DNA of 64,000 nt from Aeromicrobium ginsengisoli (GTDB taxonomy: Bacteria > Actinomycetota > Actinomycetes > Propionibacteriales > Nocardioidaceae), in the NCBI RefSeq assembly GCF_004134905.2, contig NZ_SDPQ02000002.1, positions 434,001 through 498,000 of the forward strand, read 5' to 3'. This document shows positions 32,423 through 40,714 of the stretch, piece by piece. Made by a program: the position numbers and the translations under genes. The notes beneath the pieces are model-generated. The model saw nothing but the letters and a program-made list of their open reading frames with translations, ran no database searches and was not told the DNA's origin. The number at the start of each line of letters is the position of its first letter. Position 1 is the stretch's first letter.

Positions 32423-35400
32423 ATGCTTTCCTGGCGTACGGCTCGGCGTACGTCGGGCCTCTCCATCGCAGCCGTGCTGATGCTCGGTGTGCTGGCGCCG
32501 TCGACCGCCCACGCGGCCGGCACCGAGGTCACGGGTGGAGCGCCGGGCAAGACCGCTGCCGCGCCCAAGCCGCCGCCGGTCAAGGTCGCCAAGACCAAGG
32601 TCCCGGCCGTCTCGAGGGGCGGCACCGGCAAGGTCGTCGCCGAGCTCGCCAAGACCTCGACCTCGAAGTTCCGCATGATCGGTGTGACCTGGTCGCAGCA
32701 GGGCCTGGCGTACGGCGTCAAGGTCGAGGTTCGCACGCGCACCAACGGGACCTGGTCGTCGTGGACGCCTCTGGACTACGACGGCGACGGCGACGACGGC
32801 GAGGGTGGCAACCCCGGCACCGATCCGCTGTGGGTCGGCAACGCCGACGGCGTCGCGGCGCGGGTCTCCAGCACGGTCGGCACCCCGCAGGACGTACGCA
32901 TCACCACGATCGACCCCGGCACCGACGGCCAACTGGCGACCGCGTCGACCGCCTCGGACACCTCGTACGACGGCGTCGCCCACACGTCGACGGCCGTGGA
33001 CCTCGGCGACGGCACCCCGAGCTACACGCCCAAGCCCACGATCATCACCCGCAGCCAGTGGGGCGCCTCGAGCGGGACGTCTTGCGACTCGCCGCTGACC
33101 GGCGACCGCACGCGCGGCGTCGTGGTGCACCACACCGCGGGCTCCAACACGTACGCCAAGGCCGACTCGGCGGCAATCGTCCGGGCCACGCAGGCCTATC
33201 ACGTCAAGGGTCGCGGCTGGTGCGACATCGGCTACAACTTCCTGGTCGACAAGTACGGCCAGATCTTCGAGGGTCGCCGTGGCGGCGTGGATCGCGCGGT
33301 CCGGGCTGCGCACTCGGGCAACCTCGAGGTCAACACGTACACCATGGGCGTCTCGATGATGGGCAACTACGACGTCACGCGGCCGTCAGCGGCGCTGAAG
33401 GCCGCGATGGTCAAGCTCATCGGCTGGCGGCTCGGCACCAACTTCATCAAGGCCAAGGGCACCTACTCGATCGGCGGGCTGACGCTCAACCGCATCGCCG
33501 GGCACCGCAACGTCGTGAGCACCGAGTGCCCCGGCCGGTACGGCTACGCCTGGCTGTCGCAGGAGGGCGGCCTGCGCGATCGCGTCGAGGCGTACATGTC
33601 GAAGTACTCGACGCCGATCAAGACGCTCTACACGTCGCTCGGCAGCAGCAAGACCGGGGCGATCTACATCGGCGAGGCCCGATCCTCCACCGGCGCGAAG
33701 CTCGACGCCAAACTCATGGATCTCTACGCCCGCACCGGCGCGACCGCGCACTACGTCTCGGGTCGTATCCGTACCGAGTACGACCGGCTCGACTCGCGTG
33801 CCGGCACGCTCGGCTACCCCAAGGACAACCCGCGCACGGTCGACGGCGTGATCCGCCAGCACTTCGACCGCGGCAGCGTGTACGCGGTCTCGGGCAAGCC
33901 CAAGGCGTTCAACGTGCTCGGTGACATCGCGAAGGTCTACACCAAGCTCGGTGAGTCGACCGGCACGCTCGGCGCCCCGATCTCGTCGACCTACACCGTC
34001 AAGACCGGCGTCACGCGCGTCGACTTCGCGCACGGCCGGATCATCTCGACCGCGTCGACCGACAAGACCGTCGCCTACTCCTCGACAGGCAAGGTCATCG
34101 GCACCAGCGCGACGACACGTCCCGCGACGATCACGAGCCTGACGCTCAAGGTCGGCCTCGGCTCGGTCCGCGTGTCCTGGCCCGCGGTGTCCGGCGCCAC
34201 GAGCTACGACGTGTGCCTGATGGCCGACAAGACGCAGACGACCTGCAGCCGCCTGGTGACCAAGCTGACCACGACGAACGTGCAGCTCACCGGGCTCAAG
34301 CCAACCGCCGGCACCGATTGGTACGTCAAGGTGCGAGCCGTCAACGGTGACCTCAGGGGTCTGTGGTCGGCGCTGCGCGGCTTCAACCTGCTCTTCGCGG
34401 GCGACTCCGTGACGGTGCCGAGCACCCGCCAGATCACGGTGACGGGTCACGGCTACGGCCACGGCATCGGCATGAGCCAGTACGGCGCTCAGGGGGCGGC
34501 GAAGCAAGGCGTGACGTACGACAAGATCCTCTCGCGCTACTACCCGGGCACGACGCTCGGCAGCAAGAGCGGGCAGATCAGGGTGCTGATCTCGCAGGAC
34601 ACCGACGACCCGGTCACGATCGCCGGTCGTTCTGGGTTGGTGTTCCGTGAGGTGTCAGCGGGGAAGACCCTGAAGCTGCCCACCTCGATCGGCGGCGAGA
34701 CCGTCGTACGCTGGCGCATCCTGCAGGTCACGAGCGACAAGACCCGCTCGACGCTGCAGTACAAGACGACCGGCGACTACCGCAGCTACCTGGGCACCAG
34801 GTGGACCGGCAACGGCCAGTTCGAGAACCCGTCGACGATGTCGCTGATCCTGCCGGACGGCTCGGCGGTCAAGTATCGCGGCACGTTGCGCTCGGCGATC
34901 CCCTCGACGGGCTCCACGGCCCGCAACACGGTCAACATCCTGCCGATCGAGTACTACGTCCGCGGTGTCATCGCCGCGGAGATGCCGTCGAGCTGGATGC
35001 CGGAGGCCCTCAAGGCGCAGGCCGTCGCCGCCCGTACGTACGGCGTGCGCGCCATGACGAGCTCGCGCTACTACGACATCTGCAGCACCACGGCGTGCCA
35101 GGTGTACGGCGGGGCGAGCCGCGAGACCACGAGCACGACGGCGGCGGCCCAGGCGACCGCCGGCAAGATCGTCACGTACGACAGCAAGCCCGCGTTCACG
35201 CAGTTCTCCTCGTCGTCGGGCGGCTACACGGCCGTGGGCAGCCAGCCGTACCTCACGGCCGTGAACGACCCGTGGGACGACTGGTCGGGCAATGCCAACC
35301 ACTCGTGGACCACGACGGTCGCGGCCTCGACGATCGAGAAGGCCTACCCGTCGATCGGCACCCTCAAGCAGCTCAAGATCGCGACGCGCAACGGCTTCGG

Positions 35401-35518
35401 CGACTGGGGCGGCCGGGTCAAGACCATCAGTCTGGTCGGCTCGGCGAAGACCGTGACGATCTCGGGCGACGACGCGCGCTGGGCCTTCGGCCTCAAGTCG
35501 AACTGGTTCAGGTTCTGA
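32423..35518 (+). CDS. Secreted PGRP amidase / LGFP / fibronectin III / SpoIID fusion
   Basis: The 1031-residue exported protein has a signal peptide (to about residue 32, ending THAAG), then a peptidoglycan-recognition amidase domain (about 206-375; HH in VVVHHTAG, the Tyr of YNFLVDKYG, H and C in GHRNVVSTECPG). Two LGFP repeats follow (about 449-545), a fibronectin III-like domain (about 570-650), and a SpoIID domain (about 668-1025; GHGYGHGIGMSQYGAQG). In SpoIID, VIAAEMPSSW holds the expected catalytic Glu, E853. The amidase would strip peptides from glycan strands, and SpoIID-type lytic transglycosylases cut stripped glycan, so both steps may be joined. It precedes a paralogue without SpoIID. 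Confidence 0.9.
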   Translation: MLSWRTARRTSGLSIAAVLMLGVLAPSTAHAAGTEVTGGAPGKTAAAPKPPPVKVAKTKVPAVSRGGTGKVVAELAKTSTSKFRMIGVTWSQQGLAYGVKVEVRTRTNGTWSSWTPLDYDGDGDDGEGGNPGTDPLWVGNADGVAARVSSTVGTPQDVRITTIDPGTDGQLATASTASDTSYDGVAHTSTAVDLGDGTPSYTPKPTIITRSQWGASSGTSCDSPLTGDRTRGVVVHHTAGSNTYAKADSAAIVRATQAYHVKGRGWCDIGYNFLVDKYGQIFEGRRGGVDRAVRAAHSGNLEVNTYTMGVSMMGNYDVTRPSAALKAAMVKLIGWRLGTNFIKAKGTYSIGGLTLNRIAGHRNVVSTECPGRYGYAWLSQEGGLRDRVEAYMSKYSTPIKTLYTSLGSSKTGAIYIGEARSSTGAKLDAKLMDLYARTGATAHYVSGRIRTEYDRLDSRAGTLGYPKDNPRTVDGVIRQHFDRGSVYAVSGKPKAFNVLGDIAKVYTKLGESTGTLGAPISSTYTVKTGVTRVDFAHGRIISTASTDKTVAYSSTGKVIGTSATTRPATITSLTLKVGLGSVRVSWPAVSGATSYDVCLMADKTQTTCSRLVTKLTTTNVQLTGLKPTAGTDWYVKVRAVNGDLRGLWSALRGFNLLFAGDSVTVPSTRQITVTGHGYGHGIGMSQYGAQGAAKQGVTYDKILSRYYPGTTLGSKSGQIRVLISQDTDDPVTIAGRSGLVFREVSAGKTLKLPTSIGGETVVRWRILQVTSDKTRSTLQYKTTGDYRSYLGTRWTGNGQFENPSTMSLILPDGSAVKYRGTLRSAIPSTGSTARNTVNILPIEYYVRGVIAAEMPSSWMPEALKAQAVAARTYGVRAMTSSRYYDICSTTACQVYGGASRETTSTTAAAQATAGKIVTYDSKPAFTQFSSSSGGYTAVGSQPYLTAVNDPWDDWSGNANHSWTTTVAASTIEKAYPSIGTLKQLKIATRNGFGDWGGRVKTISLVGSAKTVTISGDDARWAFGLKSNWFRF

Positions 35519-35546
35519 CGATCGGTCGGTGACAGGGTCTCTGGGT

Positions 35547-35552
35547 TAGGGT
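35547..35552 (+). promoter_or_regulatory. -10 box TAGGGT of the second PGRP amidase
   Basis: TAGGGT ends eight bases before the ATG at 35560 with no ribosome site, indicating a leaderless transcript that starts inside the short gap after the SpoIID fusion gene. Confidence 0.5.
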
Positions 35553-35559
35553 CGAACCC

Positions 35560-37209
35560 ATGCGTCCTTTCATCTCGGGAACGATCGCAGCGCTGGCGGT
35601 CCTGGCCACGATCTCCGCCCCTGCCCACGCCGAAGACACCCAGGCCCGGCCCAAGGCCGACCCCGTCGACATCGCGACGACCCGCGTCCCAGCCGTCAGC
35701 GACACGGTCGCGCAGGCAGCTGAGCGGGCCGACGACGACGCGGCCGACCTGGTCGCCCAGCTGCCTGCGCGCCGCACCGACGACTTCGGGCTGGTCGGGG
35801 TCACCTGGGCCCGCGGCTTCGACGACCGGGGCATGACGGTCCAGGTGCGGCTGCGCACCGATGGTGCGTGGGCGGGCTGGGAGGAGCTCGACGTCGAGAG
35901 CGACGAGGGCGAGGGCGGCCGCGACGGCACCGAGCCGTTGTGGGCCGGTTCCGCCGACGGCGTCGCCGTTCGCGTGACGAGCCCGACCGGCCAGCGGCCG
36001 AGCGGGCTCACGGTCTCGACGATCGACCCCGGCAGCACACCCGCGCAGGCCGTCACGGCGAGCAACGCGTTCTACGACGCGGCCGGCGATGACGCCGTCA
36101 CCACGGTCGCCGACGGCTCGCCGACCTACACCCCCAAGCCGGCGATCATCTCCCGCTCGGCGTGGGGCGCGAAGAAGAACACCTACTGCGACGCCCCGCG
36201 CACCGGCAGCGAGACCCGTGGCGTCGTCGTGCATCACACGGCAGGCACCAACACCTACACCAAGGCCCAGTCCGCAGGCATCGTCCGCGCCGTGCAGGCG
36301 TACCACATGAGCGGACGCGACTGGTGCGACATCGGCTACAACTTCCTGGTCGACAAGTACGGCCAGATCTTCGAGGGCCGCAACGGCGGCGTCGACAAGC
36401 CGGTCCGCGGTGCGCACGCAGGCAACAAGTCGGTCAACACCTACACGATGGGTGTGTCGATGATGGGCACGTTCACCAGCACCCAGCCGACGGACGCCAC
36501 CAAGGACGCGATGGTCAAGCTCATCGGCTGGCGGCTCGGCACGACGTTCCACGCCGCCAAGGGCAAGTACACCCTCGGTGGCGTCGTGCTCGATCGCATC
36601 GCGGGGCACCGCGACGTCGTGAGCACGGCCTGCCCGGGTCAGGCGGCGTACGAGTGGCTCAGCGCCTCCGGTGGCCTGCGGGACCGCGTCGAGGACTACA
36701 TCGCCAACTACACCTCACCCATCAAGACCAAGGTCATCGCGATGGGGCGGGCGACGACCGGTCCGGTGTACGTCGGTGAGTACCCGTTCACGACCAGCCC
36801 GACCGGCCGCAAGGCTCGCCTCGGCCGGCTCGACATGTACTCGACGACGACCTACGGCACGTTCTCGGTCGGCGGCAGCTTCCGGGACGGCTACAACGCC
36901 AGCGGCGCCCAGGCCGGGCGCCTCGGGGTGCCGATCGCGAACCACCAGTCGACCCCGGTCAGCAGCGTCACGCTCCAGCGCTTCGCCCGCGGCACGGTCT
37001 ATCGCGTGCAGCGAGGCAGTGTCGGTGTGCCCTACTTCCTCTACGGGAAGATCGAGGACAGGTACGTCGCGATCGGCGAAGCCACGAGCTCGCTGGGTGC
37101 GCCGAGGTCGAGCATGAGCCGGCTGTCGAATGGCGCCTACCGGGCCTACTTCGCGCACGGTTCGATCGTCCAGCACACCAACGGGGTCGTCTCGGTCTAC
37201 CCGACCTGA
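35560..37209 (+). CDS. Secreted PGRP-type N-acetylmuramoyl-L-alanine amidase with LGFP repeats
   Basis: The 549-residue protein has a signal peptide (to about residue 24, APAHA-E), a region paralogous to the preceding gene (DIATTRVPAVSD...), an amidase/PGRP domain (about 194-365; VVVHHTAG, YNFLVDKYGQIFEGR, GHRDVVSTACPG give the zinc His, His, Cys and the catalytic Tyr) and two degenerate LGFP repeats near the C-terminus (GRLGVP, SSLGAP). It would hydrolyse the muramoyl-alanine bond of peptidoglycan outside the membrane. It lies 41 bases behind its larger paralogue but seems to have its own promoter. No SpoIID domain is present. Confidence 0.9.
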   Translation: MRPFISGTIAALAVLATISAPAHAEDTQARPKADPVDIATTRVPAVSDTVAQAAERADDDAADLVAQLPARRTDDFGLVGVTWARGFDDRGMTVQVRLRTDGAWAGWEELDVESDEGEGGRDGTEPLWAGSADGVAVRVTSPTGQRPSGLTVSTIDPGSTPAQAVTASNAFYDAAGDDAVTTVADGSPTYTPKPAIISRSAWGAKKNTYCDAPRTGSETRGVVVHHTAGTNTYTKAQSAGIVRAVQAYHMSGRDWCDIGYNFLVDKYGQIFEGRNGGVDKPVRGAHAGNKSVNTYTMGVSMMGTFTSTQPTDATKDAMVKLIGWRLGTTFHAAKGKYTLGGVVLDRIAGHRDVVSTACPGQAAYEWLSASGGLRDRVEDYIANYTSPIKTKVIAMGRATTGPVYVGEYPFTTSPTGRKARLGRLDMYSTTTYGTFSVGGSFRDGYNASGAQAGRLGVPIANHQSTPVSSVTLQRFARGTVYRVQRGSVGVPYFLYGKIEDRYVAIGEATSSLGAPRSSMSRLSNGAYRAYFAHGSIVQHTNGVVSVYPT

Positions 37210-37623: not shown

Positions 37624-37638
37624 GGCCTACTCGGCCTC
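37622..37638. terminator. Small hairpin between convergent genes
   Basis: GAGGCC-N5-GGCCTC lies at the end of the membrane protein gene and over the last codons of accA3. The stem is only six pairs, so terminator function is uncertain. Confidence 0.35.
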
Positions 37639-39402
37639 TGTGGCGCTCTTGATCTCCGCGATGACTTCGCCGGACGTCACAGTCGCGCCGACCTCGATGG
37701 CCAGGCCGGTCACGACGCCGTCCTTGTGCGCGTTGATCGGCTGCTCCATCTTCATGGCCTCGACCACGACGATCTGGTCGCCCGCCGCGACGGTCTGACC
37801 CTCCTCGACCGTGACCTTGACGACGGTGCCCTGCATGGGCGCGGTCAGCGAGTCGCCGCTGGCGGCGGCTCCGGCAGCCTTGCCGCCCTTGCGCTTGGCC
37901 TTCTTGGCGCCTCCGGCCGGCGCCGCCGATGCGCCGAGTCCACCCGGGAGCACGACCTCGACGCGCTTGCCGCCGACCTCGACCGTGACGCGCTCGCGCT
38001 CGTCCGGCTCCGCGGTCTCGGAGGTGCCGGCGTAGGGCTCGAGCTCGTTGACGTAGTCGGTCTCGATCCACGTCGTGTAGACCTCGAAGTTGCCGTCGGC
38101 GGCGGTGAACGCCGGATCGTCGACGACCGAGCGGTGGAACGGGATGACGGTCGGCATGCCGTCGACGACGAACTCGTCGAGGGCGCGGCGGGAGCGCTCG
38201 AGCACCTGCTGGCGGCTCGTGCCGGTGACGATGAGCTTGGCGACGAGGGAGTCGAACGATCCGGGGATCGTCTCGCCCTCCTCGTAGCCGCCGTCGAGGC
38301 GGATGCCGGGGCCCGACGGGGGAGCCCACTTGGTCAGGGTGCCGGGGGCGGGGAGGAAGCCGCGGCCACCGTCCTCGGCGTTGATGCGGAACTCCATCGA
38401 GTGGCCGCGGATCTCGGGGTCGTCGTAGCCGAGCTCCTCGCCGGCGGCGATGCGGAACATCTCGCGGACGAGGTCGAGGCCGGTGACCTCCTCGGAGACC
38501 GGGTGCTCGACCTGGAGGCGGGTGTTGACCTCGAGGAAGCTGATCGTGCCGTCGCGAGCGACGAGGAACTCGCACGTGCCGGCACCGACGTAGCCGGCTT
38601 CCTTGAGGATGGCCTTGGACGAGGCGTAGAGGCGCTCGATCTGGTCGTCGGTCAGGTAGGGCGCGGGCGCCTCCTCGACGAGCTTCTGGTGACGGCGCTG
38701 CAGCGAGCAGTCGCGGGTCGAGACCACGACGACGTTGCCGTGGGAGTCGGCGAGGCACTGGGTCTCGACGTGGCGCGGCTTGTCGAGGAACTTCTCGACG
38801 AGGCACTCGCCGCGGCCGAAGGCGCTGATCGCCTCGCGGACCGCGGACTCGTAGAGCTCGGGGATCTCCTCGATCGTGCGGGCGACCTTGAGCCCGCGAC
38901 CGCCGCCGCCGAACACGGCCTTGATCGCGACGGGCAGGCCGTTCTCCTTGGCGAAGGCGACGACCTCGTCGGCGTCCTTGACGGCGTCCTTGGTGCCGGG
39001 CGCCAGAGGTGCGTCGGCCTTGAGGGCGAGCTGCTTGGCCTTGGCCTTGTCGCCGAGGTTCTCGATCGCGTGGGGCGGCGGGCCGATCCAGATCAGTCCG
39101 GCGTCGATGACGGCCTGGGCGAACTCGGCGTTCTCGGCGAGGAAGCCGTAGCCGGGGTGCACGCTGTCGGCGCCACTGCGCTCGGCGACGGCGAGGATCT
39201 TCTCGATCGACAGGTAGGAGTCGCCGGGCGTCGAGCCCTCGAGGGAGTAGGCCTCGTCGGCGAGGCGTACGAACACCGCGTCACGGTCGGGCTCCGCGTA
39301 GACCGCGACGCTGCCGATGCCGGCGTCCTTGCACGCGCGGATCACGCGCACGGCGATCTCGCCGCGGTTGGCGATCAGAACCTTGGTCAGGGGCTTGCTC
39401 AC
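37627..39402 (-). CDS. accA3: Acyl-CoA carboxylase alpha subunit (biotin carboxylase plus BCCP)
   Basis: The 591-residue subunit carboxylates its own biotin with ATP and bicarbonate and serves acetyl-/propionyl-CoA carboxylases. It has a biotin-carboxylase N domain ([20 protein letters not shown]), an ATP-grasp domain ([44 protein letters not shown]) and a C-terminal biotinyl domain with K551 in [10 protein letters not shown] Lys/Ala-rich linker joins them. The beta and epsilon subunits lie 7 kb away in the same window. The GTG start follows GAGGAGA. A TAGACT -10 (39441-39446) lies upstream. It is divergent from an acyl-CoA dehydrogenase. Confidence 0.95.
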
Positions 39403-39440: not shown

Positions 39441-39446
39441 AGTCTA
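39441..39446 (-). promoter_or_regulatory. -10 box TAGACT of accA3
   Basis: TAGACT on the minus strand would start a transcript about 30 bases before the accA3 GTG, leaving room for the GAGGAGA ribosome site. Confidence 0.45.
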
Positions 39447-39513
39447 GGGCGTCGGTCGGTCTCTGGCCCTATGAGGTTGGTTACGGTCGCGTCTCCCGAA
39501 CCTGTGGCCGCTG

Positions 39514-39541
39514 GTTAACGTTGGTTAACGGTTGTTAACAT
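39514..39541 (+). promoter_or_regulatory. Three GTTAAC boxes at 10-bp spacing over a leaderless promoter
   Basis: The palindrome GTTAAC occurs at 39514, 39524 and 39534, exactly 10 bp apart. The last overlaps the -10 box TAACAT (39536-39541), which ends seven bases before the ATG at 39548. The array covers the -35 to -10 region, so a bound factor would block RNA polymerase on one face of the helix. Confidence 0.65.
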
Positions 39542-39547
39542 GCTGCC

Positions 39548-40714
39548 ATGACTTTCGCCTTGTCCCGTGAGCACGAGACGTTCCGCCAGACCGTTCGCGA
39601 GTTCGCCGAGGCGGAGGTCGCGCCGCACGTCGCGCAGTGGGACAAGGAGCACCACTTCCCGATCGACCTCGTCAAGAAGATGGGCGACCTCGGACTGTTC
39701 GGGCTCACCGCCCCTGACGAGTTCGGCGGCGCCGACGGCGACTTCACGAGCCTGTGCGTGGCGATCGAGGAGCTCGGCCGGGTCGACCAGTCGATCGGCA
39801 TCACGCTCGAAGCCGCGGTTGGTCTCGGCATCAACCCGATCCTCACGTTTGGCACGCAAGAGCAGAAGGAACGCTGGCTGCCCGACCTCGTCGCCGGCCA
39901 AGCGCTTGCCGGCTTCGGCCTCACCGAGCCCGGCGCCGGCTCCGACGCCAGCGCCACCAAGACCAAGGCCGAGCTCGACGGCGATCAGTGGGTCGTCAAC
40001 GGCGCCAAGCAGTTCATCACCAACTCCGGCAGCGAGATCACCTCACTCGTCACGGTCACGGCCCGCACCGGGACGCGCGAGAACGGATCGCCCGAGCTCT
40101 CCACGATCGTGCTGCCTTCAGGTACGCCGGGGTTCATCGTCGAGCCGGCGTACGACAAGCTCGGCTGGCACATCTCGGACACGCACCCGCTGTCGTTCGT
40201 CGACGCCAGGGTGCCGGCGGATCACCTGCTGGGGGAGCGCGGCCGCGGCTACGCGCAGTTCCTCGCCACGCTCGACGACGGTCGTGTCGCGATCGCGGCC
40301 CTCGCCGTGGGCTGCATCCAGGCGTGCCTCGACCTGTGCGTCCAGTACGCCGGCGAGCGTACGACGTTCGGCGTGCCGATCGGCACCAAGCAGGGCGTCG
40401 CGTTCCAGATCTCCGACCTCGCGGTCATGGCCCAGGCGGGCCGCGCGCTGACCTATCAGGCGGCCGCCCTCAAGGACGCCGGTGCGCCCGCCAAGGAGTT
40501 CAAGCAGGCCGCGGCGATCGCCAAGCTCTACACCTCGGAGTCCGCCGTGACCGCGACGCGCATTGCGACGCAGGTGTTCGGCGGCTACGGATTCATGGAG
40601 GAGTACCCGGTCGCCCGGTTCTACCGTGACGCCAAGATCCTCGAGATCGGCGAGGGCACCTCAGAGGTGCAGCGGATGCTGATCGCGCGAGGACTCGGCC
40701 TGCCGGTCGAGTAA
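39548..40714 (+). CDS. Acyl-CoA dehydrogenase
   Basis: The 388-residue flavoenzyme would introduce the alpha-beta double bond into an acyl-CoA in fatty-acid or branched-chain degradation. Signatures are GFGLTEPGAGSDASATKTKA (FAD contact), VGCIQACLDLCVQYAGERTTFG, and the C-terminal FGGYGFMEEYPVARFYRDAKI followed by EGTSEVQ, in which E369 is the expected catalytic base. Length is standard. No Shine-Dalgarno is present before the ATG; the TAACAT box at leaderless spacing and the GTTAAC array make 39548 the likely start. It is divergent from accA3, linking breakdown and carboxylation of acyl-CoAs. Confidence 0.93.
   Translation: MTFALSREHETFRQTVREFAEAEVAPHVAQWDKEHHFPIDLVKKMGDLGLFGLTAPDEFGGADGDFTSLCVAIEELGRVDQSIGITLEAAVGLGINPILTFGTQEQKERWLPDLVAGQALAGFGLTEPGAGSDASATKTKAELDGDQWVVNGAKQFITNSGSEITSLVTVTARTGTRENGSPELSTIVLPSGTPGFIVEPAYDKLGWHISDTHPLSFVDARVPADHLLGERGRGYAQFLATLDDGRVAIAALAVGCIQACLDLCVQYAGERTTFGVPIGTKQGVAFQISDLAVMAQAGRALTYQAAALKDAGAPAKEFKQAAAIAKLYTSESAVTATRIATQVFGGYGFMEEYPVARFYRDAKILEIGEGTSEVQRMLIARGLGLPVE

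Follow-up and report, generated by a model that had tools for sequence, protein, structure and literature searches.

The closest described counterparts of the system reported here are TetR-family regulators of leucine and isovalerate degradation, and the regulator, operator and pathway are already known in Streptomyces and Mycobacterium. In Streptomyces avermitilis, AccR is reported to repress accD1A1-hmgL-fadE4 through the motif GTTAA-N6-TTAAC (PMC10933834), and methylcrotonyl-CoA, propionyl-CoA and acetyl-CoA are reported as its ligands (PMC8546615). The mycobacterial regulator BkaR (Rv2506, MSMEG_4718) has the core motif GTTA(N)T(N4)A(N)TAAC, a single copy of which is bound by a dimer; in M. 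smegmatis it is autoregulated and lies beside accD1-accA1-fadE19, which is derepressed by its deletion, and it represses further genes too (PMC3920632). BkaR has been equated with Fad35R of M. tuberculosis (PMC3920632), the protein of structure 4G12, for which palmitoyl-CoA and tetracycline have been reported (PMC4418694). In Micrococcus luteus, deletion of the TetR-family gene Mlut_06840 induces the leucine-degradation cluster (PMC5857589). The Pseudomonas regulator LiuR also controls leucine/isovalerate genes (PMC8070244, PMC9636800), but it belongs to a different protein family, MerR, and is not the regulator here. Our literature search found no paper describing the regulator, the operator or the pathway in Aeromicrobium. 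The new elements are a dehydrogenase gene detached from its operon with an operator of its own, the overlap of that operator with a leaderless -10 element, and an overlapping double operator.

The site lies in a 64,000-nucleotide stretch of the Aeromicrobium ginsengisoli genome (the window; 69.4% GC), in which three GTTAAC hexamers occupy positions 39514-39519, 39524-39529 and 39534-39539, at a pitch of 10 bp. Direct reading confirmed this arrangement, which had been picked out by eye in the initial annotation, and the hexamer occurs nowhere else in the window, for which about 1.1-1.2 copies would be expected. The array had also been held to be improbable by chance, and a genome-wide search for GTTAAC-N4-GTTAAC had been proposed. 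With an order-1 Markov model trained on the window, the expectation per 4-Mb genome is ~0.0015 such pairs and ~3e-8 triples at 10-bp pitch, in agreement with that judgement; a whole-genome motif search of the organism's own genome (G000; 4.0 Mb, 7 contigs) recovered three exact pairs, two of them overlapping at the array and one at C3:720182, and a reversed-pattern control returned none. It is extremely unlikely that the array is a functionless repeat produced by chance or by 10-bp slippage. The three-hexamer form is rare and its extra unit resembles a 10-bp tandem duplication, but such an origin could apply to the distal hexamer alone, the proximal pair being kept throughout the genus, and it would have to be set against the low number of pairs expected per genome.

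The initial annotation treated the three 6-bp palindromes as the unit. Judged from the sequence comparisons, the functional unit appears instead to be the 16-bp dyad GTTAA-N6-TTAAC, of which the array contains two overlapping copies, neither assigned to a strand: a proximal operator, GTTAACGGTTGTTAAC (39524..39539), which is the conserved BkaR/AccR-type dyad overlapping the -10 element, and a distal one, GTTAACGTTGGTTAAC (39514..39529), which has the middle hexamer in common with it. Both sites (39514-39539) match GTTAA-N6-TTAAC and GTTA-N8-TAAC exactly. The half-sites and spacing are thus identical to those described for AccR (PMC10933834), and the 16-bp length and GTTA/TAAC ends are those of the BkaR dyad, whereas the inner bases differ, being C/G here and for the most part T/A in Mycobacterium. 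A relaxed search of the own genome allowing three mismatches gave 172 matches against 108 in the control and is mostly noise. One dyad with a single mismatch, GTTAACGCTGGGTAAC, was seen at L035:8660-8675 (G000:C2:517659), ~32 bp upstream of the gene for a further acyl-CoA dehydrogenase (415 aa), and is a possible weak extra target.

The only exact dyad outside the array, at C3:720182, sits between a TetR-family gene (G000:C3:719602-720150), unlinked to the array, and a divergent accD gene; downstream of accD come a biotin carboxylase gene and an HMG-CoA lyase gene. The encoded regulator carries the Pfam domain TetR_N (2e-15), and its top PDB matches are 6yl2 (7e-44) and 4g12 (1e-43), the next, Mce3R, being far weaker; it is 47% identical to 6yl2_B over the aligned part. 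Its closest relatives in a scan of named genomes are from Aeromicrobium. Assignment to the BkaR/AccR type further agrees with the position of the gene, divergent from accD-accA of the methylcrotonyl-CoA-carboxylase type as in most of 80 named actinobacterial loci, and with the dyad in its own promoter, the geometry of autoregulation. Among those 80 loci an exact dyad is present in 77 and a one-mismatch dyad lies near the regulator gene in the other three. The protein scores 242.7 bits against the closest NCBIfam equivalog, NF050111 (SACE_7040 family regulator), below its cut-off of 250, and is not assigned to that family. The HMG-CoA lyase clears its NCBIfam subfamily cut-off, and the carboxylase subunits are identified by Pfam domains. 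We place the probability at about 92% that the array is the operator of this unlinked BkaR/AccR-type repressor, which would silence the downstream dehydrogenase until released by pathway acyl-CoA.

The distribution of the dyad in relatives follows that of the regulator. A dyad precedes the orthologous dehydrogenase gene in all 43 same-genus genomes that have the regulator and a readable 5' end of the dehydrogenase, and across all genomes compared it is found at this promoter in 48/50 with the regulator and 1/23 without (Fisher p = 2e-15, ignoring phylogeny; the genomes are not phylogenetically independent). The sole exception of the latter kind, G048, is a draft that is 88% complete. The degenerate pattern GTTARYN4RYTAAC, searched in 37 genomes of the genus, gives two or three matches where the regulator is present (one in a single draft) against zero or one in the control, and no match in G030 and G032, from which both regulator and dehydrogenase are absent. 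Within another genus of the family (g7) the dyad precedes the dehydrogenase in 10/10 genomes examined, nine of them new, a count made irrespective of the presence of the regulator in each genome. Two genomes (G017, G042) have an altered half-site, GCTAAC, common to the promoters of the regulator and the dehydrogenase, which is to be expected if one protein reads both.

Two genomes, G058 and G059, have the regulator yet lack the dyad at the dehydrogenase, where a different palindrome is found. This palindrome, TTACGTTnACGTAA, precedes the orthologous dehydrogenase in these two and in most relatives that lack the regulator, usually with a Shine-Dalgarno sequence (L141-L157, L264, L265, L283-L299). 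It is presumably a LiuR-like (MerR family) site, and its occurrence in relatives without a BkaR-type regulator has the appearance of a regulator replacement.

The promoter itself is conserved along with the operator. On the plus strand a -10 element, TAACAT (39536..39541), is followed by six bases (gctgcc) and the ATG at 39548, and the last GTTAAC overlaps it. The initial annotation read this as a leaderless promoter, and the geometry of operator and -10 element proved to be conserved in relatives: 41/48 orthologous promoters bearing the dyad have a TAnnnT hexamer ending 6-7 nt upstream of the start codon, and nearly all of the 41 are without a Shine-Dalgarno sequence. The count is conservative, since for part of the remaining seven the script chose an upstream in-frame ATG. 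Because of this conserved spacing between the -10 element and the start codon, a leaderless start of the dehydrogenase is well supported. Two positions account for most of the dyads: 8-9 nt ahead of the start, where the dyad overlaps the -10 element, and 21-23 nt ahead of it, immediately upstream of that element. From either position a bound protein would hinder RNA polymerase. Three relatives in which the dehydrogenase faces the regulator gene (G002, G004, G069) have a Shine-Dalgarno-like sequence instead of the leaderless layout.

The gene controlled by this promoter (39548..40714, plus strand) encodes an acyl-CoA dehydrogenase of 388 aa with Pfam domains Acyl-CoA_dh_N/M/1. It reaches no NCBIfam equivalog cut-off, and its probable role as an isovaleryl-CoA or short-branched-chain dehydrogenase (LiuA/FadE19/AcdH-like) combines the acyl-CoA dehydrogenase domains with a leucine-pathway gene context, the substrate being assigned from context only. 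The orthologue is directly divergent from the regulator gene in G002, G004 and G069, and in the last two of these it is followed by accD-accA. At most Streptomyces, Amycolatopsis and comparable loci, the accD operon ends in a dehydrogenase with 54-61% identity to this enzyme; these arrangements place the enzyme in the leucine pathway by context. AccR likewise targets genes for a carboxylase, an HMG-CoA lyase and an acyl-CoA dehydrogenase (PMC10933834), but most of the Streptomyces loci compared keep a dehydrogenase in the cluster, whereas here it is unlinked, beside accA3, with its own operator. The regulon also differs from that of BkaR in M. smegmatis, which adds bkdABC and fadA4, as exact dyads here mark two promoter regions only. 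The initial annotation had suggested a fatty-acid-responsive repressor. A repressor-type site, its overlap with the -10 element and a link to acyl-CoA metabolism all stand; the pathway, however, would be that of leucine and isovalerate rather than of general fatty acids, since the regulator is encoded beside methylcrotonyl-CoA-carboxylase-type genes, and by analogy with AccR a short-chain acyl-CoA, or one from the leucine pathway, would probably act as the signal.

As the initial annotation noted, the array is flanked on its other side by accA3, and both gene calls are right. The divergent neighbour (37627..39402, minus strand) encodes an AccA3-like biotin carboxylase/carrier fusion of 591 aa and has its own -10-like element, TAGACT (39441-39446, minus strand), conserved in relatives. 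The location of the array in the accA3/dehydrogenase intergenic region, with the two genes divergent in most relatives, could suggest that a different regulator owns the site, for example a fatty-acid-responsive TetR protein or a FasR-like protein acting on both genes. We consider this very unlikely, as the same dyad stands beside the BkaR-type gene and tracks its presence across genomes. Moreover, accA3 is probably not a target of the array at all: in G026 it lies ~2 kb away with the array intact, in the three relatives named above the dehydrogenase faces the regulator gene instead, and accA3 has, besides its own -10 element, a distinct conserved element upstream. The array is thus better read as the operator of the BkaR/AccR-type repressor at the dehydrogenase promoter.

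The element upstream of the accA3 -10 sequence (window 39471-39484, minus strand) reads GTAACCAACCTCAT, or GTGACGTACCTCAT in other species, and is found in many, not all, relatives, including G026, where accA3 is not beside the dehydrogenase. It may be bound by a separate regulator; its likeness to FasR-type motifs is only loose. We also considered a regulator shared between accA3 and fatty-acid genes, and set this candidate aside as no fatty-acid gene was found to carry a further close copy of the element.

In a separate observation from the same window, two adjacent large ORFs (32423-37209; 1031 and 549 aa), both with a start resembling a signal peptide, have long similar stretches in common, for example GVVVHHTAGSNTYAKA and GVVVHHTAGTNTYTKA, which suggests that a gene for a secreted, amidase-like protein has been duplicated in tandem.

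The initial annotation had named conservation of the spacing in relatives as a test; the proximal dyad is found genus-wide, the third hexamer in only 3/49 genomes of the genus (G000, G026 and G035). The dehydrogenases of these three are 99% identical. The distal hexamer appears to be a recent addition, which creates a second operator overlapping the first at the middle hexamer. Among 342 genomes of the family a single further triple was found, GTTAGCATGCGTTAACGATCATTAAC in G372, a member of another genus, where it has arisen independently at the accD promoter in the intergenic region between that gene and the regulator gene (L276:1501-1526). A comparison of G000, G026 and G035 shows unchanged hexamers beside a variable distal spacer (GTTG, GTCG, GATG) and diverged upstream DNA, a weak sign of selection in a sample of three.

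It was earlier proposed that a protein bound to all three hexamers covers one face of the DNA, that is, that several protomers or two dimers sit together on a specialised cooperative operator. Retention of the hexamers in these three genomes despite diverged surroundings, and the independent triple in G372, would fit such an arrangement, but it is unlikely: the third hexamer is dispensable in 46/49 genomes of the genus, a BkaR dimer occupies one motif (PMC3920632), and two dimers offset by 10 bp would have to contact one and the same major groove, at the hexamer they share. Since both dyads use the middle hexamer, TetR-family geometry implies that two dimers should exclude each other. A tentative alternative, which we regard as possible though doubtful, is that the array has been selected as a register-switching operator, on which one dimer alternates between two 16-bp registers, over the -10 and the -35 regions.

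In our preferred reading, in which the array is the operator of the unlinked repressor, a dimer would bind one 16-bp GTTAA-N6-TTAAC dyad, and occupancy of 39524-39539 would cover the leaderless -10 element, block RNA polymerase and so silence the dehydrogenase. Acting at the third exact dyad of the genome, the one outside the array, the same protein would repress its own gene together with accD-accA-hmgL. Rising levels of pathway acyl-CoAs, which by analogy with AccR may include methylcrotonyl-CoA, propionyl-CoA and acetyl-CoA, would release it, so that the unlinked dehydrogenase would be induced together with the carboxylase and the lyase. The hexamer at 39514 would add an overlapping register placed over the -35 region; as two dimers should be unable to share the middle hexamer at once, the extra register would act through raised occupancy.

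A motif first spotted by eye thus becomes a defined regulon of two promoter regions across the genus. The apparent regulator replacement, with another palindrome in relatives that lack the repressor, is open to study. Register switching, if true, would tighten repression without a second protein. A pathway gene that lies apart from its operon would nevertheless stay under the same switch, by way of an operator placed on a conserved leaderless promoter.
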